Assembly (NCBI GenBank): GCA_015055965.1
Contig: SVHG01000004.1
Span: forward strand, 1 to 64,000
DNA length: 64,000 bases
Source: Clostridiales bacterium
GTDB taxonomy: Bacteria; Bacillota; Clostridia; Christensenellales; Borkfalkiaceae
Direction of reading: 5' to 3'
Positions 34,414-56,613 of this stretch are shown here, piece by piece. Each line of letters opens with the position of its first letter. Positions within the stretch are counted from its first letter, which is position 1. The notes beneath the pieces were generated by a model. It did not search any database, had not been told where the DNA came from, and saw only the letters and a list, made by a program, of their open reading frames with translations. A program made the translations under genes and the position numbers.

Positions 34414-34442
34414 TTGACATATATTATATTTGGTGGTATAAT
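34414..34442 (+). promoter_or_regulatory. Promoter for riboswitch-nucleoside kinase
   Basis: Consensus TTGACA (34414-34419) and TATAAT (34437-34442) with a 17-base spacer. The expected start, about 34449, lies just before the purine riboswitch. Confidence 0.9.
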
Positions 34443-34457
34443 AGCCTTTGCACCACT

Positions 34458-34518
34458 CGGTATATACTTGCAATACGGGCAAGAGTTTCTACAAGCCACC
34501 TTAAATGGTTAACTACCG
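34458..34518 (+). ncRNA. Purine riboswitch aptamer, guanine-type (C74)
   Basis: The 61-base element follows the purine-riboswitch plan: P1 CGGTA/TACCG, J1/2 TATA, P2 CTTGC/GCAAG with L2 AATACGG, J2/3 AGTTTCTACA, P3 AGCCA/TGGTT with L3 CCTTAAA, and J3/1 AAC. The loop-loop and core bases (ATAnGG, GTTTCTAC, CCnTAAA) are those of the xpt class. The specificity base in J3/1 is C, as in guanine/hypoxanthine sensors; adenine sensors have T. It lies in the leader of the nucleoside kinase gene. A possible expression-platform hairpin (CTTTAC 34526-34531 with GTAAAG 34553-34558, T run at 34566-34570) follows, but its strength is uncertain. Confidence 0.93.
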
Positions 34519-34604
34519 CAATCTACTTTACTTTATTAACGCGTTATAAGTGGTAAAGGTAAAAATTTTTAAACGAAATTAACCATAAGGAAGGTAAAAA
34601 ATAT

Positions 34605-36308
34605 ATGAAGCTTATTATTGACGGAAGGGAGACGGTAGCCCACCCAAATCAAACACTTTTACAAATAATAACCGAAATGGGCTTAATAAACGGCAAGCTT
34701 TCACACGATCCTATCGTTGCAAAAATTGCGGGAGAGGTTTTTACTCTTAACTACGTTCCCACACGCAAAAGAAGAAGCAAAAACGATAAGCCATCTTTAA
34801 GAAAGGCGATCGAAGCTTCTAACGGTAAGGTTACCCTTTTAAGATATCAAGATCCCCTTGGTATGGACGCGTATAAAAGAACCGCGCAATTTATTTTATT
34901 TGCAGCAATCAAAAAGCTTTGGCCGGAATCTGAAGCTCAAATGAACTGCACCGTTGGCTCCGGTTTATACATTAAAGTTACTAACGCAAAGGATTTTAGC
35001 GTTAAAAAGTTAAAGGCTCAAATTGCAAAAACCGTTAGAAAAAACGTTATCTTAAAACGCAAAACCGTTTCAACGGAGGAAGCAATAGAATTCTACCGTA
35101 AACAAGGTCAGCTTGATAAAGCAAGGCTATTAGAATACAGAACAAACAAGACCTTTAGCATGTATCATTACGGCGACTTTGCAGATTACTTTTACGGCGA
35201 AATGGCCCCCTCTACCGGTTTTTTAAGGGTATGGGATATAACTCCTGCACCAAGCGGTTTTATGTTTATTTTTCCGGACTCGCTTAACCCGGATAAGCTT
35301 TCTCATTATAAGGAAAGCCCAAACTTCTTTAACGTGTATACGGAGGGCAAACAATGGGGCGAGCTTATGAAATGCAAAACGGTTGCAGATCTTAACGAAA
35401 TGGTCGATAACGGGCATATACGCACACTTATTCAAGTTAACGAAGCCCTTCACGAGAAGCGTTTTTCACAAATCGCAGACGCTATTTGCCAAAGGGGAGC
35501 AAAGATTGCTATGCTTGCAGGTCCTTCATCCTCAGGCAAAACCACTTCTGCAAACAGGCTTGCAACACAGCTTAGAGTTCACGGCAAAAATCCGATTTTA
35601 ATGAGTCTTGACGACTATTACTTAGATAGAGATAAAATCGCACCCGGTCCGGACGGAACTATTGACCTTGAGCATATTAATACCATTGATACGGACCTTT
35701 TTGCAAAACACCTTGCACAGCTTTTAGCAGGCGAAGAGGTTGAGCTTCCCACCTTTAATTTTAAAATTGAAAGGCGCGAATGGCTTGGCCATAAGCTAAA
35801 GCTTGATGAAAGCACGGTAATTATAGTTGAAGGACTGCACGCCCTTAACCCGGTATTGCTTCCCAAGGATGCAGACGCTAACTCTATAGTTAAAATATAC
35901 GTAAGCCCCTTGCTTGCCCTTAACTTAGATAACCACAACAGAATACCTTCTAGCTATCTAAGACTATTAAGGCGCACCGTGCGTGACTACGAAACCAGAA
36001 ACTCATCCGTTCAAAAAACCCTTTCCATGTGGGATTCGGTTAGACGCGGTGAAGAAAGATGGATATTCCCATTCCAAGAACAGGCAGACTTTATCTTTAA
36101 CAGCTCTACCCTTTACGAGGTGTGCATTTTAAAAAGACATATCTTCCCCTTGCTTAATAAGGTTGAACCGTGTGACGACTGCTACGACGAGGTTCGCTCT
36201 ATGGTTAAATTCCTTAACTTTATTCACGAGGCGGACGTGGATGATGAAATCCCGCCCACTAGCTTAGTACGCGAATTTATTGGCGGAAACACCTTCTATC
36301 TTAAATAA
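34605..36308 (+). CDS. TGS/ThrRS-N-like + uridine-kinase-like nucleoside kinase
   Basis: A 567-residue protein. Residues 1-60 form a TGS-type domain; about 75-160 resemble the threonyl-tRNA synthetase editing-side domain; from about 300 a Udk/PRK-type P-loop kinase begins with AGPSSSGKTT, followed by LMSLDDYYLDRDKI, TFNFKIERREW and VIVEGLHALNP. The family is usually annotated as uridine kinase-like, without proof of substrate. Control by a guanine-type riboswitch instead suggests a purine nucleoside or purine-salvage related substrate. AAGGAAGG precedes the ATG. A terminator built from the dispersed repeat follows eight bases after the stop. Confidence 0.88.
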   Translation: MKLIIDGRETVAHPNQTLLQIITEMGLINGKLSHDPIVAKIAGEVFTLNYVPTRKRRSKNDKPSLRKAIEASNGKVTLLRYQDPLGMDAYKRTAQFILFAAIKKLWPESEAQMNCTVGSGLYIKVTNAKDFSVKKLKAQIAKTVRKNVILKRKTVSTEEAIEFYRKQGQLDKARLLEYRTNKTFSMYHYGDFADYFYGEMAPSTGFLRVWDITPAPSGFMFIFPDSLNPDKLSHYKESPNFFNVYTEGKQWGELMKCKTVADLNEMVDNGHIRTLIQVNEALHEKRFSQIADAICQRGAKIAMLAGPSSSGKTTSANRLATQLRVHGKNPILMSLDDYYLDRDKIAPGPDGTIDLEHINTIDTDLFAKHLAQLLAGEEVELPTFNFKIERREWLGHKLKLDESTVIIVEGLHALNPVLLPKDADANSIVKIYVSPLLALNLDNHNRIPSSYLRLLRRTVRDYETRNSSVQKTLSMWDSVRRGEERWIFPFQEQADFIFNSSTLYEVCILKRHIFPLLNKVEPCDDCYDEVRSMVKFLNFIHEADVDDEIPPTSLVREFIGGNTFYLK

Positions 36309-44670: not shown

Positions 44671-47600
44671 TTATTCCTCGTAGCCCCAAAGAACAGGTCT
44701 ACTATTAGGATTCCAATTAGAATCCCAACTTTCAGGCTGACTTTCCGCTTCACAATAAATTGTTAAACTATCGCAATAAGCGAACGCCCAATCACCAATT
44801 GAAGTAACGGATTTACCAATCACAACCGAAGTTAAACTATCGCAAAAAGAGAACGCACACCCACCAATCGAATTAACTGAGTCACCGATTACAACCGAAG
44901 TTAAACTATCACAATTATAGAACGCATATTTACCAATGGAAGTAACGGAATCAGGAACGTAAAATTCACCAATTTTTCCAGGTGCAAATATCAACAGTGT
45001 TTTTGCATCTTTGCTATAAACGTTGCCATTAATTGAACAATAAGTTTCATTATCTTCACTTACTTCAATGCTTGTTAAACTCTCGCAATAATCGAACGCC
45101 TCATAACCAATAGAAGTAACGGAATCACCAATTACCACCGAAGTTAAACTACCGCAATAAAAGAACGAACCATCCCCAATCGAAGTAACTGAATTAGGTA
45201 TTACTATTGAAGTCAAACTATTACAATAAGCGAACGCTCTTTTACCAATTGAAGTAACGGAATCAGGAACGTAAAATTCGCCAATTTTTCCAGGTGCAAA
45301 TATCAACAGTGTTTTTGCATCTTTGCTATAAACGTTGCCATTAATTGAACAATAAGTTTTATTATCTTCACTTACTTCAATGCTTGTTAAACTACCGCAA
45401 TAAACGAACGAACCATCCCCAATCGAAGTAACGGAATCACCAATTACCACCGAAGTTAAACTACCGCAATAAACGAACGAACCATCCCCAATCGAAGTAA
45501 CGGAATCACCAATTACCACCGAAGTTAAACTACCGCAACTTCTGAACGCCCAATCACCAATTGAAGTAACGGAATCAGGAACGTAAAATTCGCCAATTTT
45601 TCCAGGTGCAAATATCAACAGTATTTTTGCATCTTTGCTATAAACGTTGCCATTAATTGAACAATAAGTTTCATTATCTTCACTTACTTCAATGCTTGTT
45701 AAACTCTCGCAATAATCGAACGCCTCATAACCAATAGAAGTAACGGAATTAGGTATTACTATTGAAGTCAAACTATTACAATAAGCGAACGCCCAATCAC
45801 CAATTGAAGTAACGGAATCAGGAATTTCGATTGAAGTTAAACCACTGCAATTAACGAACGCTTCATTACCAATGGAAGTGACTGAATTGGGAATTACCAC
45901 CGAAGTTAAACTACCGCAATAAACGAACGAACCATCCCCAATCGAAATAACTGAATTAGGTATTTCTATCGAAGTTAAACTATCGCAATATCTAAATGCA
46001 TAAGAACCAATAGTACTAATTAATTTACCTTCATAAGTAGAAGGTAAAATAACTTCAGCAGGCATATTACAAACGGCTTTTGCAGCAATTGAATAAGTAT
46101 CATCCTCTAATAACGTAAAAGTAAAATACTCATATGGTGTGTGTTCTTCCTCTTCTTTATAGCCCCAAACAACAGGTCTATTATCAAGATTCCAATTAGA
46201 ATCCCAACTTTCAGGCTGACTTTCCGCTTCACAATAAATTGTTAAACTATCACAATAAGCGAACGCACATTCACCAATGTAAGTGACTGAATTGGGAATA
46301 ATAACGCACTCAAGCAAGGTGCAATCCATAAACACACTATTACCAATTGAGGTTACTGTGTTAGGAAGACTAATTGTTTTGAGTGATTTACATCCACTAA
46401 ATGCAGAACCAGCAATTGTTGTTAATTTACTACCTTCTTCAAAAATTATATTTTCTAATAAGGTGCAATAATTAAATGCTGAATTGCCAATTGATGTTAC
46501 CGTATTAGGAATAGTAATACTTTGAAGTGTTTTGCAACCAATAAATGCAGAACTGCCAATTCTATTTAACTGACTATTTTCTTCAAAAATAACACTACTT
46601 AGCATATGACAGTGCGCGAATGCCCAATCACCAATAGTGGTTACGCTACTTGAAATTTTTACACTTTCTAAATAACTGCACTCGTTGAAAGCATATGTCC
46701 CAATAGTGGTTACGCTATTTTGAATTTCAAAAGAAGTTGCGGTTTTGCCTTTAACTAAAAGTATTAACTCTTTGCCATCTTTAGAATACAAATCGCCATT
46801 TATCATTTTAAAGTTTTCATTGTTTTCAATTACTTCCATATTTGTTAATGAATAGCATCCCATAAACGAAGTAATATCGATAGATTTTACTCCACTACCT
46901 ATTTCAACACTTGTTAATGACTCACAACCAGCAAATGAATAATAACCAACGTTTTTTATGCTATTTGGTATTTTTATTGAAGCAAGTGAAATACAATTAT
47001 AAAACACATAGGAATTAATAGTAGTTAAAGAACTATTTTCTTCAAATATTACGCTTTGTAATGAAGCGCAAGATTCAAATGCCTTTTCTCCAATAGATAT
47101 AACGGAATTAGGTATCACAATTGATGTAAGTGAACCGCAAGATTCAAATGCCTTTTCTCCAATAGATGTAATGGAATTACCTATTTCAACAAAAGTAAGT
47201 GAACTGCAAAATCTAAATGAAGATTCACCAATAGAAATTACAGTATCTGGAATAATAACTGAAGCGATCAAACTGCAATTATAGAAAACCATATTAGCTA
47301 TAAATTTACAACCGTCAGTTATAACCACTGCACCATCTCCATCATCCCTTGAATACAAGTCCTCTTCAATTAAATATAAATAGGGATTGGATTCATTACC
47401 TAAATACATTAAATTATCTTTTTCGTTATATTCTAAATTATAACAATATTTAAATGCATTATTTCCGATAAAAGTTATGCTATTAGGAATTATAACCGAG
47501 GTGAGAGTATTGCAACTTTCAAAGGCGCCTGCCTCAATTGAAGTTACGTTATATACCTTATCTCTATATTCTATAGTTGAAGGTATATGCACTGTTTCTA

Positions 47601-50600
47601 TAGATTTATTTTGCTTATTGGTTACCTTAGCACCGCTATCGTTGATAGCATAATTTATACCATCAATAGTGGTGAGTATATAACCATCTTGAGTGTATTC
47701 ATTATTATTGCAATCCCATATAACAGGGCATTCACCATTCCAATAATAATCCCATCCGCTTGGTTTGCTTGCTACTTCACAATAAATAATTAATAAATCA
47801 CAATAGTAAAATGCATAATCACCAATTGAAGTTACATCATTAGGTATAACTATAGAAGTTAAATTGCTACAATCCCTAAACGCAGCAGAACCAATCGAAG
47901 TTAATTGACTATTCTCGACAAACTCAACCGAAGTTAAACTACTGCAATTATAGAACGCATACCCACCAATCGAATTAACTGAGTCACCGATTACCACCGA
48001 AGTTAAACTACTACAGTAATAGAACGCATATTTGTAAATCTGTGTAATATATGAAGGTAACACTAAATTTGTTTCGCTTCCAAAATAACCAACTAAAATC
48101 TTTTCTTCACCTTCAGTATAAACTATATACCCATTATCGTTAGACATTCTACTTACGTAAGAATCATCACAGTTAGATACTGATAATGCATAATATCCTA
48201 CGCAACCATTATCTTCACTACCTTTTGTTACAGTTATATGTGATGATTTGTTTATTACTTCTACTAATCTATAGCATTCATAAAACGCAGAAGAACCAAT
48301 CGAAGTAACTGAGTCGGGTATTTTAATTGAAGTTAAACTACTGCAATTATAGAACGCATCAGAAGCAATAAACCTACAACCTTCATCGATATTTACACTT
48401 GTTAAATTGAAATTATTACTTTCTGCTAAATATAAATATGGATTTGTTGAATTACCCAAATAATATAAGCCATCACCATTCTTATTATATTGCAACTTGT
48501 TGCAAGAATAAAAAGCGTCCTCTCCAATAAGGGTAACAGAATTAGGTATTGAAACGTAAGTAAGCGAGTTACAGTCTTTAAACGCATTTGCTTCAATAGA
48601 AGTCACGTTATAAGTAAGTCCATTATAAATTAACGTTTCAGGAATTTCAGCCGTTTGAATGTTTTTATCTTGACCAATTACTTTCGCTTCACCATCTTTT
48701 AATTTATAACGTATATCTTCTATGGTTGCATAAATGTTACCATTGTCATCTATTCCGCCATTATTGCAATCCCATATAACAGGGCATTCACCATTCCAAT
48801 CCATCGCCCAACCAATCGGCTTGCCTTTTGCTTCACAATAAATAACTAATGAATCACAACCATAAAAGGCATCTTCACCAATAAAGGTGACGGATGATGG
48901 TATAGTTATAACCGTTAATTCATCGCAATACTTAAAAGCACTATTCTCAATTATAGTGAGTGAGTTAGGAAGCACTATTTCCATTAAGTCGTCATTATCA
49001 TAAAACGCATACTCACCAATCGAAGTCAACTGACTTCCTTCTTCAAAAAGCACTTTTGTTATCCCGTTACAATCAGTAAATGCTTTATTCCCTATAGATG
49101 TTACCGATGCAGGTATTACTATCTCTCCTTCAATATGGCATTCAAAAAATGCCACATCGCTAATTGTGGTTACAGTATTAAGTATTTTTAAATTATGATA
49201 ATAATAGTCACCCACTCCAGCTATTAGAGTCTTTCCATCTGCAGTATATAAAACACCCTCTGCAATTTTGAAACTGGTGTTATTCTCATCAATACTAACT
49301 TGTGCATCACTCACAAAAAATGGATTACCACCAATTGAAGTTACCGACGCAGGTATTATAAATTCATCTAAGCTACAATCGGTAAATGCAAAATCACCAA
49401 TTGTTTTTAGTTGACTATTTTTACTGAAAATTATTTCTCTAACGTGAGCGCTATAAAAAGCTGTAGCGCAAATTTCAATAACAGAATCTGGAATTATAAG
49501 AGATTCTACATCTGTATCCCATTCAAAGGACTCAGAACCAATAAATTTACAATTTTCATCAATGCTAACAGTAGTAAATTCTCCAGATGAAATTTCAGCT
49601 AAATATAAATACGGGTTGTTATCATTACCTAAATATTTTATATTATCTTTAATTTTGTATCTTAGTGAACTACAACCATAAAATGTATTTAAACCGATTG
49701 AAGTTACTGAATCAGGTATAGTAATCGACGTTAAAAAATTCCCACTATAAAAGGCATAATCGCTAATTTTTGTTACAAATTCAGGTATTTCAAAATACGT
49801 TCTTGGTTTACCAATTGTATACTGAATTAAAGTTTTTGTATCCTTTGAATATAAATTGCCTTGTATTGACGTATAATACTGATTTTCCGCATCAACTTCA
49901 ATTCGTTTTAATGACGTGCACATGCAAAAAGAAGGTTCTCTAGCATATTCAGCAAGATAATTAAATTTATGACTGATTTTTTCAAGTGTTTTTGGTATTT
50001 CTACCGTATGCAGTATATCACATCCATAGAAAGCAGAATTTTCTATCTCTTTATAACCTTCTGGTATTACAAGAGTTTTAATTGTATCACAGTTCCAAAA
50101 TCCCTCTGCCGCAATAACGGTTACAGGCTTACCTTCGTAAGCATTTGGCAATATAACATTCTCGGGCATATTTCTATTATTTTTTGCTGCAATCGCGTAA
50201 GCTTCATCTGGCAATGGTATAAAAACAAAATATTCGTAAGGTGTATGTTCTTCTGCCGATTTTCCGCAGTAAATACAAACACCATCTACATATTTATGTT
50301 TACCCAAAGGTAATTCTTCTTTATAACTAAAATCACATTTTTCATCTTTGCATTTCCAAAGATGATAGCCATTCGTTATACAAGTGGACTCAACCACTTC
50401 CACTAATTCTAATCTGTGTTTTAATTTAAAATCATATTGCTTATAACCGCAATCTATGCATTCTCTATAACGAATACCATTTAAAAAGTCGTTGCTATCT
50501 AAAAGTGTAATCCATTTTTCAAAAGTATGATTGCAGTTTTTTTGCATTTCCGTTTGTGTTTTGAAAAATAAGGTATTCCAACCTTTACCATTATTATATG

Positions 50601-50937
50601 ATATTTCCCAATAACCATTTTCTGCATTTTCTTGAATTAACGGAATTATTCCTATTTGAAATTCATCACCTTTAACAAGTTCAAACCACTCATCAAAAGA
50701 AAGAACCACGATTTGCATTTCCTCAGCATAATCACAGTAAATAGAGTAAATTTTTTTCATATTGACGTCTTTAAACAATTCTTCAATCGGAATATCATTT
50801 GGGAATGATTCATCATCTTCAATTGATAATTCTCCCGATAATGATGAAGAGTTTCTTTGGATGGGTGTGCAAGAAGCAAAAACCACAGTTAAAGAAGCCA
50901 TCATAGCAATGATAATTAGTAGTAAGAGTTTCTTCAT
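44671..50937 (-). CDS. Giant BspA-type leucine-rich-repeat surface lipoprotein
   Basis: A 2088-residue lipoprotein: signal peptide with lipobox FASC (Cys23) and Ser-rich start. Residues about 130-230 hold Cys/His-rich modules (CIDCGYKQYDF, CVYCGK-type). From about 235 to the end run dozens of about 23-residue LRR_5 repeats of the form LTSIxIPNSVTSIGxxAFxxC, as in BspA. Four blocks end in a cap of the type IYCEAxxxPxxWxxxWN...PVxW, so the protein is built from at least four LRR modules. BspA proteins bind host matrix and other bacteria. The last modules (44.9-45.8 kb) contain nearly identical repeats. Expression seems to be controlled by a structured leader (50967-51143). Confidence 0.92.
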   Translation of the reverse strand: MKKLLLLIIIAMMASLTVVFASCTPIQRNSSSLSGELSIEDDESFPNDIPIEELFKDVNMKKIYSIYCDYAEEMQIVVLSFDEWFELVKGDEFQIGIIPLIQENAENGYWEISYNNGKGWNTLFFKTQTEMQKNCNHTFEKWITLLDSNDFLNGIRYRECIDCGYKQYDFKLKHRLELVEVVESTCITNGYHLWKCKDEKCDFSYKEELPLGKHKYVDGVCIYCGKSAEEHTPYEYFVFIPLPDEAYAIAAKNNRNMPENVILPNAYEGKPVTVIAAEGFWNCDTIKTLVIPEGYKEIENSAFYGCDILHTVEIPKTLEKISHKFNYLAEYAREPSFCMCTSLKRIEVDAENQYYTSIQGNLYSKDTKTLIQYTIGKPRTYFEIPEFVTKISDYAFYSGNFLTSITIPDSVTSIGLNTFYGCSSLRYKIKDNIKYLGNDNNPYLYLAEISSGEFTTVSIDENCKFIGSESFEWDTDVESLIIPDSVIEICATAFYSAHVREIIFSKNSQLKTIGDFAFTDCSLDEFIIPASVTSIGGNPFFVSDAQVSIDENNTSFKIAEGVLYTADGKTLIAGVGDYYYHNLKILNTVTTISDVAFFECHIEGEIVIPASVTSIGNKAFTDCNGITKVLFEEGSQLTSIGEYAFYDNDDLMEIVLPNSLTIIENSAFKYCDELTVITIPSSVTFIGEDAFYGCDSLVIYCEAKGKPIGWAMDWNGECPVIWDCNNGGIDDNGNIYATIEDIRYKLKDGEAKVIGQDKNIQTAEIPETLIYNGLTYNVTSIEANAFKDCNSLTYVSIPNSVTLIGEDAFYSCNKLQYNKNGDGLYYLGNSTNPYLYLAESNNFNLTSVNIDEGCRFIASDAFYNCSSLTSIKIPDSVTSIGSSAFYECYRLVEVINKSSHITVTKGSEDNGCVGYYALSVSNCDDSYVSRMSNDNGYIVYTEGEEKILVGYFGSETNLVLPSYITQIYKYAFYYCSSLTSVVIGDSVNSIGGYAFYNCSSLTSVEFVENSQLTSIGSAAFRDCSNLTSIVIPNDVTSIGDYAFYYCDLLIIYCEVASKPSGWDYYWNGECPVIWDCNNNEYTQDGYILTTIDGINYAINDSGAKVTNKQNKSIETVHIPSTIEYRDKVYNVTSIEAGAFESCNTLTSVIIPNSITFIGNNAFKYCYNLEYNEKDNLMYLGNESNPYLYLIEEDLYSRDDGDGAVVITDGCKFIANMVFYNCSLIASVIIPDTVISIGESSFRFCSSLTFVEIGNSITSIGEKAFESCGSLTSIVIPNSVISIGEKAFESCASLQSVIFEENSSLTTINSYVFYNCISLASIKIPNSIKNVGYYSFAGCESLTSVEIGSGVKSIDITSFMGCYSLTNMEVIENNENFKMINGDLYSKDGKELILLVKGKTATSFEIQNSVTTIGTYAFNECSYLESVKISSSVTTIGDWAFAHCHMLSSVIFEENSQLNRIGSSAFIGCKTLQSITIPNTVTSIGNSAFNYCTLLENIIFEEGSKLTTIAGSAFSGCKSLKTISLPNTVTSIGNSVFMDCTLLECVIIPNSVTYIGECAFAYCDSLTIYCEAESQPESWDSNWNLDNRPVVWGYKEEEEHTPYEYFTFTLLEDDTYSIAAKAVCNMPAEVILPSTYEGKLISTIGSYAFRYCDSLTSIEIPNSVISIGDGSFVYCGSLTSVVIPNSVTSIGNEAFVNCSGLTSIEIPDSVTSIGDWAFAYCNSLTSIVIPNSVTSIGYEAFDYCESLTSIEVSEDNETYCSINGNVYSKDAKILLIFAPGKIGEFYVPDSVTSIGDWAFRSCGSLTSVVIGDSVTSIGDGSFVYCGSLTSVVIGDSVTSIGDGSFVYCGSLTSIEVSEDNKTYCSINGNVYSKDAKTLLIFAPGKIGEFYVPDSVTSIGKRAFAYCNSLTSIVIPNSVTSIGDGSFFYCGSLTSVVIGDSVTSIGYEAFDYCESLTSIEVSEDNETYCSINGNVYSKDAKTLLIFAPGKIGEFYVPDSVTSIGKYAFYNCDSLTSVVIGDSVNSIGGCAFSFCDSLTSVVIGKSVTSIGDWAFAYCDSLTIYCEAESQPESWDSNWNPNSRPVLWGYEE
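44930..45770 (-). repeat. Tandem near-identical LRR blocks in the BspA-type gene
   Basis: A coding block for LTSIEVSEDNxTYCSINGN followed by VYSKDAK(T/I)LLIFAPGKIGEF and YVPDSVTSIG occurs three times, at about 44940-45070, 45240-45390 and 45560-45700, almost unchanged at the DNA level. Such recent duplications permit repeat-number change by recombination or slippage. Confidence 0.8.
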
Positions 50938-50966: not shown

Positions 50967-51001
50967 AAAAAAGTGCCGCTTATTTTTGCAATAAGTGGCA
51001 C
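50967..51001 (-). terminator. Intrinsic terminator in the BspA leader
   Basis: On the minus strand GTGCCACTTATT (51001-50990) pairs with AATAAGCGGCAC (50984-50973), 12 bp with one G-U, loop GCAAA, followed by TTTTTT. It lies between promoter and gene, 30 bases before the start codon, so it must be an attenuator, not the end of an upstream gene. Confidence 0.88.
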
Positions 51002-51143
51002 CTAGTAAAGTGACTTATCGCTCAGTTGCGACACCAAATTAAAAAACATAATCTCACGTATATGATTTTTTGTAACGCGAAAAAGTACACTTATACTTAT
51101 AAGTATACACATACGTGAAAAATATATTAATTTGGAATCGCAA
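50991..51143 (-). ncRNA. Riboswitch-like structured leader with antiterminator upstream of the BspA-type gene
   Basis: The minus-strand leader begins with a long nested fold: outer stem 51127-51143 with 51026-51042 (TTGCGA and CCAAATTAA arms), middle stem TCACGTATGTG (51108-51118) with CATATACGTGA (51054-51064), and an inner hairpin GTATACTTAT/ATAAGTGTAC. Several pairs are G-U, which implies selection on RNA. ATAAGTCAC (51018-51010) can pair with GTG-CC-ACTTAT (51001-50991), which is the 5' arm of the terminator: a ready antiterminator. GCGA at 51022-51019 region can compete for the 3' side of the outer stem. The layout is that of a riboswitch, but I do not recognise the class. Confidence 0.6.
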
Positions 51144-51147
51144 AATT

Positions 51148-51176
51148 ATTTTAGCACTTTTTGATTATTATTGCAA
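51148..51176 (-). promoter_or_regulatory. Promoter of the BspA-type gene
   Basis: TTGCAA (51171-51176) and TAAAAT (51148-51153) on the minus strand with a 17-base spacer. The start site would fall at about 51141, the very beginning of the leader fold, giving a 5' UTR of about 200 bases. Confidence 0.75.
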
Positions 51177-51360: not shown

Positions 51361-52266
51361 TTATTCACATTTACCGCTAACTTTAAAATTAGTAAAGCTT
51401 ACGCCCGCAGCACCGGTGCGAAGACCAAATCCGCCACCCGTTAAAAAGCGTGTTTCTGAATAGCCAATGTAAAGCTCGCCGTTAACGTAGCAGTAAATAT
51501 CCGTTCCGTTAAGAATAACCTTTATAGTGTAGCTCTCGCCCTGAACGAAACCATCTATGGGAAGCACCTTTAACGCGCTCCACTTGCCGTTATCTACCTT
51601 ACCAAGATAAGCAAGTCCTTCAATATTTACAAAGAAGAAATAGTAAGAAACGTTGCTTTCCCAGAAGGTGCTACTGCCGTTATTTTCTAAACAGAAGATA
51701 ATACCGCTATCAGATGGATTAGAAGAGCTAACCGTAACCTCTATACTACCCCTATCAAAATCTTGAGTGGTATTAGCCATTACGTTAGCGCCATTACCTG
51801 AAACAAATCCACCTTCCGTGGTTATGGGCGCGCCCATTGCAACGTATAAATCACTTGAATAAACCTTTTCCCAAAGCGCTTGAATAGTAATATTTTTAGT
51901 AACGGGCGCGGAAAAATCATATTCCTTACCATCGCTAAACCAACCAAGGAAGATATGCTCACCAAAGGTGGGCGTAGTAGGCTGAGCAAAAGCTTCGCCA
52001 CGCTTTACCTGATAAATTTTTTCAAGCGAACCGTTATTTAAAATTAGTGTTACGTAAACGTATTCCGCGCTTTCTTGACTGTTTAGCAGTAAATTATCTT
52101 CATTCTTTTTATCAGCCATATCAATTCCGGTAACCTCTTGAGTTAAACCGTTAATAAGCTCTTCTGCTTCTCCGTTGGAAAGAGAGCCTTGAGCGCATCC
52201 GCCAAGAGTGAAGCAAAGCAATAAAACAACTAAGGTTAATCTTTTTAAAATCTTAAAAGCTTTCAT
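51361..52266 (-). CDS. Lipoprotein with InlB-type repeat and LamG/concanavalin-like domain
   Basis: A 301-residue lipoprotein with lipobox LGGC (Cys24). Residues about 80-135 form an InlB_B/Listeria-Bacteroides repeat (YQVKRGEAFAQPTTPTFGEHIFLGWFSDGKEYDFSAP region). Residues about 140-300 look like a concanavalin-like jelly roll (MANTTQDFDRGSIEVTVSSS, GESYTIKVILNGTDIYCYVNGELYIGY). It shares that jelly-roll pattern with the 825-residue lipoprotein two genes upstream. The gene starts inside the last codons of the phosphoesterase gene (four-base overlap). Carbohydrate or matrix binding at the surface is inferred. Confidence 0.8.
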   Translation of the reverse strand: MKAFKILKRLTLVVLLLCFTLGGCAQGSLSNGEAEELINGLTQEVTGIDMADKKNEDNLLLNSQESAEYVYVTLILNNGSLEKIYQVKRGEAFAQPTTPTFGEHIFLGWFSDGKEYDFSAPVTKNITIQALWEKVYSSDLYVAMGAPITTEGGFVSGNGANVMANTTQDFDRGSIEVTVSSSNPSDSGIIFCLENNGSSTFWESNVSYYFFFVNIEGLAYLGKVDNGKWSALKVLPIDGFVQGESYTIKVILNGTDIYCYVNGELYIGYSETRFLTGGGFGLRTGAAGVSFTNFKVSGKCE

Positions 52267-54116
52267 ATTTGTTCCTCCTTACGTTTTGCTTTTACAATAG
52301 CGCACATAGCGGTAAGACCGGTAAAGCTCATAGCCGCAACACCTTGAAGAGAAGAAGCGCTTTCGCCATCTTCAGTAGCGGTAGCAAGCTCTTGAACCAC
52401 GCTGTTTTCCTGTTCCTCTACCCCGCCAATCGTGGGATTGAATTCATCCGCAAATGACATCGTAAACTGGTTTTGTAGGTTATAACAAGCGTCGTATTCG
52501 GGGCTATAATAACAGAAGTTCATCGTTTTATTTCTTTCGTTAACCTTAATTACTAATAAGGTATTCATTGCGCTAGACATCATTGCGCCCTGAAGGTCTA
52601 CTAAAACGGAAGTAAAGGTGTTTCCGTGAATTCCCTTATCTTGGCGTCTAAATAGGTAATCTGCGGGAATGTGACCGCTAAACGCCATAAATACGTTAGA
52701 GTGCTTACTTAAAACCTTTTCCCACATTTGCTGAGCCCTGTAAGAGTCAGCGTAATTATAAGGGTTATACGTACCGCTATCAAGCTTACCGTGGCTATCC
52801 ATAAAATAGTGAGTTGTTACTATAACTCTGCAGTCGGGATGCTCGGAAATCATTCTATCCGCCCAGTTAACTACGTTAATTCTAGGTAAGTATTCTAAGC
52901 TTAAAATCATATATTTAACGTCGCCAACGGAAAAGATTGAATAATAGTTATCCATATAACCTTCTTGGAAAGCTCCGCCAAAATAATCGGTTTTGCTATA
53001 CTTTTCGTATGGGAAATATTTGTTAAACATAGAGGTATCTCTGGTTGCACCCCAATCGTTATAGTCGTGATTACCTAAAACGAAGGAATAGCGAACCTTG
53101 CCGTCCAGCATAGAAATACAGCTACGCGCCGTTTCCCATTCAGAGGTGCTTAATTCGGGCTCTTTAACGTATTTATGCTCCGTCATATCCCCTAAGTACA
53201 TAACGAACTGAGTATTAAGCTCTTTTGCGCTATTAACTATCCATTGACTTTGCTGAACGAAGTTTTCCTTTTTATATGCGTTCATAATTTGCATATCGGG
53301 AACTACTAATAAGCTATAGTCGTAATCCTCAAACTCCTCTACTTCAACGTATTTATCGTAAGTACCAACGGTACAATGGTTTGCGGTACTTGAGGTATCT
53401 TCTACCATTTCGTTATCGAAGCTCCATTTCTTACCGAAATACCAGTTAGACATAAGACCTTCTCTTTCGTTAGAGGTTATAACGCGTTTAGTCATATCTT
53501 CACGGATAATTTCTTGCGGTTGCGCGCTTGAATAAACGGTAACCTGCTCTATTTTGCCGTAGAAAGGTGTTTTTTCGTTATACCAGTTATTCCAGTCCGT
53601 TCCGATACCAAATCTTAAATCGCTTACACACTCGCCTAAAACGACTTCAACCTCTTCTTTAACCTCGCCGTTTACGTAGTATAAAATTTTATTAGCTGAA
53701 GCATCTCTTACGATTGCAACGTGCGTCCATTCGTCGTTTCTTAAGTCCACGCTGGTAAAGGTGTGGGTAAACGCGCCGTCATTCCAAAATAGGTGGAAGT
53801 TACCGTTCGTGCCTACCCCAAAGTTTACAGTTCCGGGGAATTTGCTATGAGCGTTATAATAACTACCCATAATTACACCGCCCGTAACGCTATCAGCAAG
53901 ATCAGCGGGAAGCTGAATCCACGCTTCAAAGGTGTTTATGGTTTCATAATAAGGGGACTGAGTTTCATACATTATTCTATCCGTAATAATAGAATATACC
54001 TTTTCGCCGTTTTCAAGCGAATATGCGTTTACCGTTCTGCCTTGAAACCCCGAAATAAATGGGGTTAACGATAAAGCAAGTAATAAAGCTATCGCTAAAT
54101 AACGTAACTTTTTCAT
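52263..54116 (-). CDS. Exported LamG-domain + calcineurin-like metallophosphoesterase
   Basis: A 617-residue secreted protein. Signal peptide, then a LamG-type sandwich (about 45-210; FEAWIQLPADLADS, WTHVAIVRDASANKILYYVNGEV). Metallophosphoesterase motifs follow: VVPDMQ, YLGDMTEH, LGNHDYND, TTHYFMDSHG and FSGHIPAD, so the dimetal site is complete. The end has a weak hydrophobic segment and KAKRKEE tail, probably a membrane anchor. The start at 54116 has GGAGG nine bases upstream; ATGs at 54122 and 54125 are closer to it. Middle gene of a three-gene surface operon; substrate unknown. Confidence 0.88.
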   Translation of the reverse strand: MKKLRYLAIALLLALSLTPFISGFQGRTVNAYSLENGEKVYSIITDRIMYETQSPYYETINTFEAWIQLPADLADSVTGGVIMGSYYNAHSKFPGTVNFGVGTNGNFHLFWNDGAFTHTFTSVDLRNDEWTHVAIVRDASANKILYYVNGEVKEEVEVVLGECVSDLRFGIGTDWNNWYNEKTPFYGKIEQVTVYSSAQPQEIIREDMTKRVITSNEREGLMSNWYFGKKWSFDNEMVEDTSSTANHCTVGTYDKYVEVEEFEDYDYSLLVVPDMQIMNAYKKENFVQQSQWIVNSAKELNTQFVMYLGDMTEHKYVKEPELSTSEWETARSCISMLDGKVRYSFVLGNHDYNDWGATRDTSMFNKYFPYEKYSKTDYFGGAFQEGYMDNYYSIFSVGDVKYMILSLEYLPRINVVNWADRMISEHPDCRVIVTTHYFMDSHGKLDSGTYNPYNYADSYRAQQMWEKVLSKHSNVFMAFSGHIPADYLFRRQDKGIHGNTFTSVLVDLQGAMMSSAMNTLLVIKVNERNKTMNFCYYSPEYDACYNLQNQFTMSFADEFNPTIGGVEEQENSVVQELATATEDGESASSLQGVAAMSFTGLTAMCAIVKAKRKEEQI

Positions 54117-54135
54117 ATTCATCATCCTCCTTTAA

Positions 54136-56613
54136 TTATTGTTCGTAAGGGGTAAATACCATATTTGTAAAGGTAGTTCCCGTAGTGTAAGTGTTAAATC
54201 CAACGCCTACGCATTGAGCGTCGCCGTCAAATAAACCAAGATCTTCTTCTGCAGTACAAGTGTAAATACATTCGCCGTCTACGTAAATCTTAATATAGTC
54301 AGGCATAATCTCTATTGCAAGATTCATAGTTAAGCTATCAGTTTCCCCTGCGTGGAATGCTACGTTTCTTGCGTAATATTCGCCAAGCGCTCCTTCCGTA
54401 TCTGCGGTGTATTTAGCAACTTGGATATTCTTTTCACTTCCGTCAGGTCTACCCTGATAAACACCGTTGTTTATAGTTGTTAAGGTGAAGTTAACGTTAC
54501 CTGAAACACTGTGGTGTAAATAATAACATTTGATTTCGCCGTTACTGTACTTAACCAAACCGTCACTGCTGGGAACGTATGCGTTCATATATAAGCCTAC
54601 TCTTGAATTATTTCGTTCGGTTACCGTTACGTCTACCGACCACTTACCGTATCTACCGGTAATGCCGTCTACCGTAATAGCTGCGCGAAGCTCGTTTGAG
54701 GTATAGCTCTTTCCGTCTGCGCTAATAGTATAACCGTTTTTAGTGGTTTCACTGGGCTGTACTTCAACCGCGCTCATAGGCGTAAAGGTGTAATTAGCAA
54801 ACTTAGTGCCTGCGGTTGCGGTGGTAAAGCCAACGCCTACGCATTGAGCGTTGCCGTCGAACAAGCCAAGGCCTGAAGCGTTGGTATATTCAATTACGCA
54901 TTCGCCGTCCACGTAAACCTTAATATAAGTGTTAAGCACTTCTACTGCAAGATTAAAGGTCAAGCTTTCAGTTGTTCCCGCAATAAATTGCGCGTTTCTT
55001 GCGTAATAATTAGCAAGAGCGCCCGCCGTGCTTGCGGTGTAATTTTTAACCTGTAAATTTGCCTTAGTTCCGTCCGGTCTTGCTTGGTAAACACCGCCCG
55101 CAATAGTGGTTAAGGTAAAGTTTGCGTTCGCCTTTACGTTGTGGTGCACGTAATAACCGCTAATTGCGCTATTTCCGTAAAGAATTGATCCGCTTGACTG
55201 GGGTACTGTTGCATTTATTAGTAGACCTAATCTATTATTAGTTCTATCGTTTACCGTAATATCAACCGACCATTTACCGTATCTTCCGCCCATATTGGGA
55301 ACTGTTACCGTAGCGTTTGCAACCGCTGCTTCGTAAGTTCCGTCGGGATATACGTTATAACCGTTTGCCGTGCTTACCTCTTGAAGCTTAGCGTATACCG
55401 TTAGATCTTCGGTAACGGAATAGGTTGAATCTATTTTTTGGGTTAACCCTTCGTCTGCAAACCAACCCATAAAGCCATAACCTTCTACGCTTACGTTGGG
55501 AAGGTAAACCCCTTCGCCCTCCGTAGCAAGTCTTTGCGTTATAATCTCGTCGGTAAGAGTATTAACGTAAGTAACCGTATGAGTTGAAGCAGATTGAGCG
55601 CTGGGTGTAAATCTAATATTTCTTGCGCCGTTTCCTGCGGTATTCGTTCTAATGCCAACGTGATCGCCAACGACGGTGTTTAACCAATCGCCGGTGTAAG
55701 TGTAAAGCTCTTCGCCGTCGATATATAATTTGATATATTCAGCAGTAAAATCAACTGAAAAATCAACCGTTAAAGTACCGCCAAAGGTTCTCCATTCACT
55801 CCACTTCGTTTGCCAAGATTCAGGTGATGCAGTTAAGCTTACCGTCTTTGCAACCAAGTAATCATTCTTAACCTTTGCAAGCTGGAATCCACCGTTAGTT
55901 GCGTTTAGGTGCATATACCAGTACTCACAGTTGGTATCGTAAAGATAATCAATCTCTTCGTACGCTAAATTCCAAATAATACCAATACCACTAGTAGTTG
56001 CAACGTTAATATCTAAGGTAACGCTTAAGCTTCCGTAATGACCTTTTGGCGCATTTTTTGCAGGACGTATACCTGATTTTATGGACGTATAGCTATCATT
56101 TTCCGCATTATAGCCCCAACCGAAAAGCTGTGGCATATCGTAACCAGCATAAAATGCCATAGAGTGATTTGGCATAATAAAATCTTCAGTTACGGCGTTT
56201 TCTAGCCATTCGTCGTACCAGCATTCAAAGGGTAATTCTTCCCCTTCAAACATTATTCCGCTGGGAATTGGCCAAGCAGAAACGTCTACCGTTTCACCCG
56301 CTTCATATTCTACTACGGTGTATTCGTCGTAAGCATGGTAAAGTCTTATGGCGTGACTTTGCGGTTGGTTATCTTCGGAGCTAGAAGAATCCTCGCTTGA
56401 AGAATCAAAGATGCTTGACGAATCTTCCGTTGAAGAGCTTTCGTTTGAGCTTTGTGTTGAAGAGTCCGATAATACTTCACTTGAAGAGCTCTCACTTGAA
56501 ACATTCTCGCTTGAAGATTCACCAGAAGAATTTACGCCCGATACCGTTTGACATGCAACGACTGATAGCATGGCGCAAACAATTAAAAATAACATTAAAA
56601 ATTTGCGTTTCAT
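54136..56613 (-). CDS. Large surface lipoprotein with three LamG-like modules and an InlB repeat
   Basis: An 825-residue lipoprotein: lipobox VVAC (Cys21), then a Ser/Glu-rich stalk (residues 25-90). A first LamG-like module covers about 160-345, an InlB-type repeat about 350-410 (TVTYVNTLTDEIITQRLATEGEG, LPNVSVEGYGFMGWFADEG), and two closely similar LamG-like modules lie at about 415-620 and 630-825 (both with GRYGKWSVD, YYARN and CVGVGF). The last two are an internal duplication of about 200 residues. First gene of the operon with the phosphoesterase and the smaller lipoprotein; promoter at 56648-56676. Confidence 0.87.
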   Translation of the reverse strand: MKRKFLMLFLIVCAMLSVVACQTVSGVNSSGESSSENVSSESSSSEVLSDSSTQSSNESSSTEDSSSIFDSSSEDSSSSEDNQPQSHAIRLYHAYDEYTVVEYEAGETVDVSAWPIPSGIMFEGEELPFECWYDEWLENAVTEDFIMPNHSMAFYAGYDMPQLFGWGYNAENDSYTSIKSGIRPAKNAPKGHYGSLSVTLDINVATTSGIGIIWNLAYEEIDYLYDTNCEYWYMHLNATNGGFQLAKVKNDYLVAKTVSLTASPESWQTKWSEWRTFGGTLTVDFSVDFTAEYIKLYIDGEELYTYTGDWLNTVVGDHVGIRTNTAGNGARNIRFTPSAQSASTHTVTYVNTLTDEIITQRLATEGEGVYLPNVSVEGYGFMGWFADEGLTQKIDSTYSVTEDLTVYAKLQEVSTANGYNVYPDGTYEAAVANATVTVPNMGGRYGKWSVDITVNDRTNNRLGLLINATVPQSSGSILYGNSAISGYYVHHNVKANANFTLTTIAGGVYQARPDGTKANLQVKNYTASTAGALANYYARNAQFIAGTTESLTFNLAVEVLNTYIKVYVDGECVIEYTNASGLGLFDGNAQCVGVGFTTATAGTKFANYTFTPMSAVEVQPSETTKNGYTISADGKSYTSNELRAAITVDGITGRYGKWSVDVTVTERNNSRVGLYMNAYVPSSDGLVKYSNGEIKCYYLHHSVSGNVNFTLTTINNGVYQGRPDGSEKNIQVAKYTADTEGALGEYYARNVAFHAGETDSLTMNLAIEIMPDYIKIYVDGECIYTCTAEEDLGLFDGDAQCVGVGFNTYTTGTTFTNMVFTPYEQ

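Follow-up and report, generated by a model that had tools for sequence, protein, structure and literature searches.

Here, we provide structural, covariation and distribution evidence for a widespread family of RNA leaders in Clostridia that very probably function as cis-acting transcription-attenuation switches. The copy from which the analysis started lies on the reverse strand of a 64,000-nt window (the whole stretch of DNA analyzed, positions 1 to 64,000 of contig SVHG01000004.1 from the Clostridiales bacterium assembly GCA_015055965.1), in front of a gene (44671-50937) for a 2088-aa lipoprotein-like BspA/LRR_5 protein (open reading frame; Pfam LRR_5, E 6.5e-299, 16 stretches). The family is apparently uncatalogued, riboswitch-like and new to Rfam 15.

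The leader region of the window is bounded by a terminator-like hairpin (51336-51302) that follows the upstream gene and by the start codon at 50937. All of its parts lie on the reverse strand. A consensus-like promoter occupies 51148-51176 (-35 box TTGCAA at 51176-51171, 17-nt spacer, -10 box TAAAAT at 51153-51148), exactly where the preliminary description had placed one, and the end of the -10 box is separated by 5 nt from the first helix, P1. The 5' strand of P1 (51127-51142) pairs with its 3' strand at 51042-51027, as indicated by the predicted fold and by covariation. It encloses P2 (51109-51120 with 51063-51052; fold and two-sided changes in 10 of 11 counted pairs) and P3, whose 5' strand GUAUACUUAU (51099-51108) pairs with 51094-51085 according to the fold and to sequence conservation. 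Between the 3' strands of P3 and P2 runs J3/2 (51064-51084), a conserved single strand with the sequence UUUUUCGCGUUACAAAAAAUC that is complementary to a downstream segment, the tail (51008-51021). Fold, permutation and covariation assign the tail two kinds of partner: it can pair with the 3' strand of P3 together with J3/2 (hereafter P3'/J3-2; 51092-51077), or it can serve as the 5' strand of the antiterminator and pair with 51003-50999 and 50996-50988. The antiterminator 3' strand (50988-51003) overlaps the 5' arm of an intrinsic terminator, which consists of a hairpin at 51001-50973 followed by six U (50972-50967) and ends 29 nt before the ATG.

The predicted minimum free energy of the leader is -60.7 kcal/mol, compared with -32.4 +/- 3.6 kcal/mol for 200 dinucleotide shuffles, none of which was as low (z = -7.84). 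Predicted energies of the competing structures are nearly equal, with -12.9 kcal/mol for the antiterminator, -14.7 kcal/mol for the terminator and -13.2 kcal/mol for the helix between tail and P3'/J3-2. The three nested stems that the preliminary description had claimed for 51026-51143 thus reappear as P1, P2 and P3, and its terminator (50973-51001 plus six Ts) matches ours, with the hairpin and U-tract recurring in 136 of 143 relatives. Its antiterminator is real, with a predicted pairing (51021-51008 with 51003-50988) that is longer than described, lies at slightly different positions and comprises two helices, 51021-51013 with 50996-50988 and 51012-51008 with 51003-50999. The mutual exclusivity of antiterminator and terminator likewise holds, but the third pairing, of the tail with P3'/J3-2, had been overlooked. 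The terminator of the window leader is absent from the output of an automatic terminator scan, probably because of an A-C mismatch.

We scanned the window and 59 related loci against the 4227 families of Rfam 15, and none of these reached its gathering threshold at the element, in line with the earlier view of this leader as unrecognised. At the element in these same sequences, the c-di-GMP riboswitch models gave no covariance-model match and the T-box model gave no match. The sole Rfam match in the window is a purine riboswitch at 34438-34535 on the forward strand (49.1 bits). It precedes a gene (34605-36308) whose 567-aa product, judged by eye, resembles a P-loop protein of the uridine-kinase type that has a TGS-like domain at its N terminus; a purine sensor and a putative kinase make an unusual pairing.

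Relatives of the leader were recovered by DNA search as copies of 70-75% identity, in the same genome and in other genera, preceding different genes. All three helices recur in the hand-aligned copies: P1 as UGCGAC.../...GUCGCA, P2 with a hypervariable sequence and P3 with the conserved strands GUAUACUU/AAGUGUAC. J3/2, some 20 nt long, is conserved too, with a consensus of about CUUUUUCGCRUUACAUAAAAAUC. Because automatic alignment misaligned P2, we built the seed alignment manually and padded it with N. Two-sided changes occur in 18 of 33 pairs of the family alignment, and 95.5% of cells are complementary, compared with 77.5% after shuffling and 36-56% in slid controls. The slide control is biased in favor of the structure because the structure was derived from the same sequences; the two-sided changes in 10 of 11 P2 pairs are not so explained. 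Copies of a divergent clade from the wider class have tails similar to AAUCGGAGCUAUGCAUUUUUCGUGCG, and their lower P1 is near-invariant. In these class copies the near-invariance covers the lower ten P1 pairs (UGCGACAYAA/UUGUGUCGCA) and goes beyond what pairing alone needs. The two clades cross-match, with the second family model (R2) finding class copies down to E 1e-10 and the model built from the divergent class clade (R3) finding the window copy at E 0.001. The sensor-like domain is conserved, and its conservation is backed by covariation.

The position of the element relative to promoter and gene is equally well kept. A sigma-70 promoter was found in 124 of 143 family and order copies (12 after shuffling), with a distance from the end of the -10 box to P1 of 5 nt in 116 and 6 nt in 6 of these 124; among the class copies, 86 of 98 have a promoter, at 5 nt in 69 and 6 nt in 16. 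This near-invariant spacing puts the predicted transcription start of the window leader at about 51141 and not downstream of 51026. Terminator-like hairpins follow in 136 of 143 family and order copies and in 99 of 99 class copies, and in nearly all copies of the family and order set a start codon with a ribosome-binding site usually lies 65-100 nt past P1. The element is therefore a 5' leader between promoter and gene with termination built in. Roughly one class copy in three lacks a clear gene start in the 140 nt or so that follow. Class loci such as L259, L263, L267, L272, L273, L283, L284, L290, and L297 are promoter-RNA-terminator units with no clear gene start close downstream, and such units could be stand-alone RNAs or decayed leaders. 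Tandem copies were seen at L304, L223, L247, L280, L078, L175, L242, and L243, some about 215 nt apart and some with their own promoter; at L304, three RNA copies stand consecutively before one gene. Given these gene-less and tandem copies, some members of the family may act otherwise than as attenuators.

The family is widespread within the class Clostridia. Within the same family, the first model (R1) gave 1-5 matches per genome in 86 of the 301 genomes sampled. R2 matched 27 of 347 genomes from the order, where further families carry copies, and 23 of 341 from the class, the class matches representing the divergent clade. With R3, 95 of 391 class genomes proved to carry copies (66 of 318 among good ones), and nine class genomes that were searched more sensitively had 8-21 each. 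The genome of the window carries five copies, with R3 matching two further ones besides the window copy; in the window itself, the family models match one place, the leader. Outside the class, phylum samples of 348 and 179 genomes gave zero matches, the window's own genome alone being matched. An exact-pattern scan of named genomes returned at least 35 stretches; among the matches listed, all were from metagenome-assembled genomes of Clostridia or Clostridiales, and many were labelled as ruminant gut samples. The pattern had zero matches in IMG/VR viral contigs and none in plasmids. One record filed as Bacteriophage sp. (L313, MT835845.1) contains a class copy; its neighboring genes look chromosomal (clpB-type, yicC-type), so the record is probably bacterial DNA. 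The preliminary description had pointed to conservation in close relatives and to covariance-model searching in front of the LRR_5 genes of Clostridia as informative; structure and sequence proved to be kept in close and distant relatives alike, and the search yielded hundreds of copies, many of them before LRR_5 genes.

Indications of a switch come from the tail. Its best predicted duplex with P3'/J3-2 has a median length of 16 bp. When tails were permuted among copies, copy-specific complementarity between tail and J3/2 gave z = -4.5 in 112 near copies, -8.7 in 46 divergent copies and -13.0 in 99 class copies, and complementarity between tail and terminator 5' arm gave z = -14.2, -12.1 and -12.5, respectively. 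Such permutations do not fully remove relatedness, and control regions serve as guard: under the same permutation they mostly stayed at |z| < 2, the larger values in near copies belonging to the P3 region (-3.2) and J3/2 itself. Covariation points the same way. In 53 class copies, 92.6% of the cells of the helix between tail and P3'/J3-2 are paired and six pairs show two-sided changes. The two-sided cells number 44, compared with 16.9 after shuffling (0 of 500 shuffles reached the observed value); the number of pairs alone is unremarkable (112 of 500). This alignment was hand-anchored, and the 53 counted copies are what remains of the 99 class copies after removal of 17 outside the search pattern, 21 that repeated another copy at these positions and 8 by hand. 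The pairing is kept through sequence change, as UUUCGC/GCGAAA near the window, as GCUC/GAGC in the class and as UCUCUC/GAGAGA in two copies from the window's own genome. Because the tail is complementary to both P3'/J3-2 and the terminator 5' arm, its capture and antitermination are mutually exclusive. Complementarity, permutation and covariation thus agree on an expression platform with mutually exclusive structures, which presumably alternate in cells.

Attenuation by this leader could proceed as follows. The RNA would begin at P1, right after the promoter, and P1, P2, and P3 would form and leave the conserved J3/2 single-stranded. The tail would then have two exclusive partners, either J3/2 plus the P3 3' strand or the terminator 5' arm. 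J3/2, which we propose as both toehold for the tail and candidate ligand site, would offer the single strand by which the tail invades P3. Capture of the tail by P3'/J3-2 would allow the terminator to form and would turn the gene off, and if P3/J3-2 were held closed, the tail would build the antiterminator and transcription would enter the gene. We infer that a signal decides between these alternative pairings; whether a ligand turns the gene on or off is a matter of guessing, and our guess leans slightly towards on.

Several other explanations of the same layout deserve weighing. P1 arms that resemble inverted repeats, together with many copies per genome, would suit a mobile repeat (MITE) or DNA palindrome in which P1 forms terminal inverted repeats without any RNA function. 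However, the conserved promoter and tail fall outside the inverted repeats, there are no matches in viral contigs or plasmids, and P2 diverges yet covaries, as do the tail pairings; covariation refutes a repeat without RNA function, and we give this explanation next to no weight. A leader-peptide attenuator based on ribosome stalling is just as improbable. It would account for the antiterminator and terminator, and a short frame is readable in the window leader, but a short frame with a ribosome-binding site is present in just 13 of 144 and 15 of 99 leaders and a translated short frame is thus not conserved. The layout of promoter, RNA, and terminator, or most of it, in every copy examined could also be expected of stand-alone terminated small RNA genes that lie upstream of genes by chance, as could the tandem copies and the class copies without a close gene. 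Against this speak the gene start and ribosome-binding site at their usual 65-100 nt past P1 in nearly all family and order copies, the recurrence of LRR_5 genes downstream in distant lineages and the conserved antiterminator, which would be purposeless in a simple small RNA. We therefore regard stand-alone small RNAs as improbable, if less so than the two preceding explanations.

A more serious competitor is an attenuator controlled by a protein or a trans-acting RNA, in which the pairings would be the same but decided by an RNA-binding protein or small RNA at P3/J3-2 or at the invariant lower P1. The very high conservation of P3 and J3/2, and of the lower P1 in the class clade, would fit such a factor, and so would the diversity of the target genes. 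On the other hand, a candidate protein was not identified, and many copies per genome before unrelated genes fit a small signal too. We consider control by a protein or trans-acting RNA unlikely, although clearly ahead of the other alternatives. The near-invariant lower half of P1, which plain pairing does not explain, also counts against the attenuation reading as a whole.

The genes behind the leaders are varied. LRR_5 domains were detected in 56 of 139 downstream proteins of the first set, in which the first 400 aa were scanned, along with Listeria-Bacteroides repeats, collagen repeats, and zinc ribbons. In the class set, 14 of 59 downstream proteins have LRR_5, and copper-amine-oxidase N-terminal and S-layer domains also occur; 13 class copies are part of the first set, which slightly reduces the independence of the two sets. 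In the genome of the window, four of five copies precede LRR_5 lipoproteins. LRR_5 domains are matched 113 times in the 2.06 Mb of this genome; counting one gene per match, LRR_5 genes are estimated at roughly 6% of its approximately 1900 genes at most, and the association of the leader with LRR_5 is thus well above background. A lipobox-like motif is present in 83 of 137 proteins of the family and order set. The earlier proposal of a riboswitch-like leader controlling a BspA adhesin is supported; the regulated genes also extend beyond adhesins. Downstream of many class copies lie genes for small proteins that have no Pfam name, and most of the small downstream proteins scanned received no useful name from Pfam, NCBIfam, and PHROGs. 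Proteins of 49-82 aa directly behind class copies fall into three recurring families (L103, L095, L236, L250, L274; L238, L252, L294; L091, L100, L278) with the motifs MNIKVELLKNYISDF..., ...TPGNxGKDCxGNG...CCCDEC... and ...YKxLYFxLF...; where scanned, these three families received no Pfam, NCBIfam or PHROGs name. The three genes upstream of the leader in the window (51361-56613, reverse strand) also resemble genes for exported surface proteins by eye, with LamG-like domains, a metallophosphatase, and Listeria-Bacteroides-type repeats.

The diversity of downstream genes, which include LRR lipoproteins, zinc-ribbon proteins, and small proteins, means that gene context names no ligand; such variety would be more in keeping with a signalling molecule than with a pathway intermediate. 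We moderately favor a small molecule bound by P3/J3-2 as the signal. Cyclic di-GMP was rejected as general ligand and is unlikely in this role, since GGDEF domains occur in 5 of 27 carrier genomes and are missing from 22, including the window's own. Cyclic di-AMP and (p)ppGpp are nucleotide messengers made by most Firmicutes, and either may be the signal.

By its location, its sensor-like domain, and its exclusive platform the element is of the riboswitch kind, and ligand binding by the element is putative. It resembles transcription-attenuating riboswitches of the purine, SAM-I, TPP, and c-di-GMP types in being a 5' leader with a structured sensor-like domain, an exclusive antiterminator and terminator and several copies per genome. 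It differs from them in its linear P1-P2-P3 arrangement, the conserved bulge J3/2 of about 20 nt and the lack of an Rfam match. In riboswitches with a pseudoknot platform, such as preQ1, SAM-II, and c-di-GMP-II, the strand that pairs back into the sensor domain comes from the 3' side of the main helix. The likeness to these, drawn by general description only, is the back-pairing 3' strand; here, however, pairing of the tail with P3'/J3-2 can also displace the 5' strand of P3, and there was no covariance-model match. T-box leaders share transcription antitermination in Firmicutes leaders, but the present family has no Rfam T-box match and its regulated genes are not related to tRNAs or amino acids. 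A literature search confined to main texts, and largely to freely accessible papers, found no prior description. Fremin and Bhatt (2021; PMC8040213) computed 3161 unnamed RNA candidates from human microbiomes, some of them in Clostridiales, and the present family could be among these; a term search of the main text of that paper found no lipoprotein- or adhesin-linked candidate.

It is intriguing to propose that the leaders represent a new class of riboswitches, one that ranks among the more abundant ones in Clostridia. Such a class would sense an unrecognised signalling molecule other than c-di-GMP and determine which surface LRR proteins and small unknown proteins are displayed by gut Clostridia, with the tail acting as a mimic of one sensor-helix strand. 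Taken as a whole, this proposal is tentative and falls a little short of an even chance. About a quarter of the sampled Clostridia genomes carry this RNA family, with up to 21 copies each and without a match in Rfam 15. The family provides a defined sequence and structure for asking how BspA-type surface proteins are controlled in gut Clostridia, a question that concerns uncultured commensals. If a small molecule is bound, the family would be an abundant orphan riboswitch whose ligand could reveal an unrecognised signal, and it would give a first functional clue for the uncharacterised small proteins encoded downstream.
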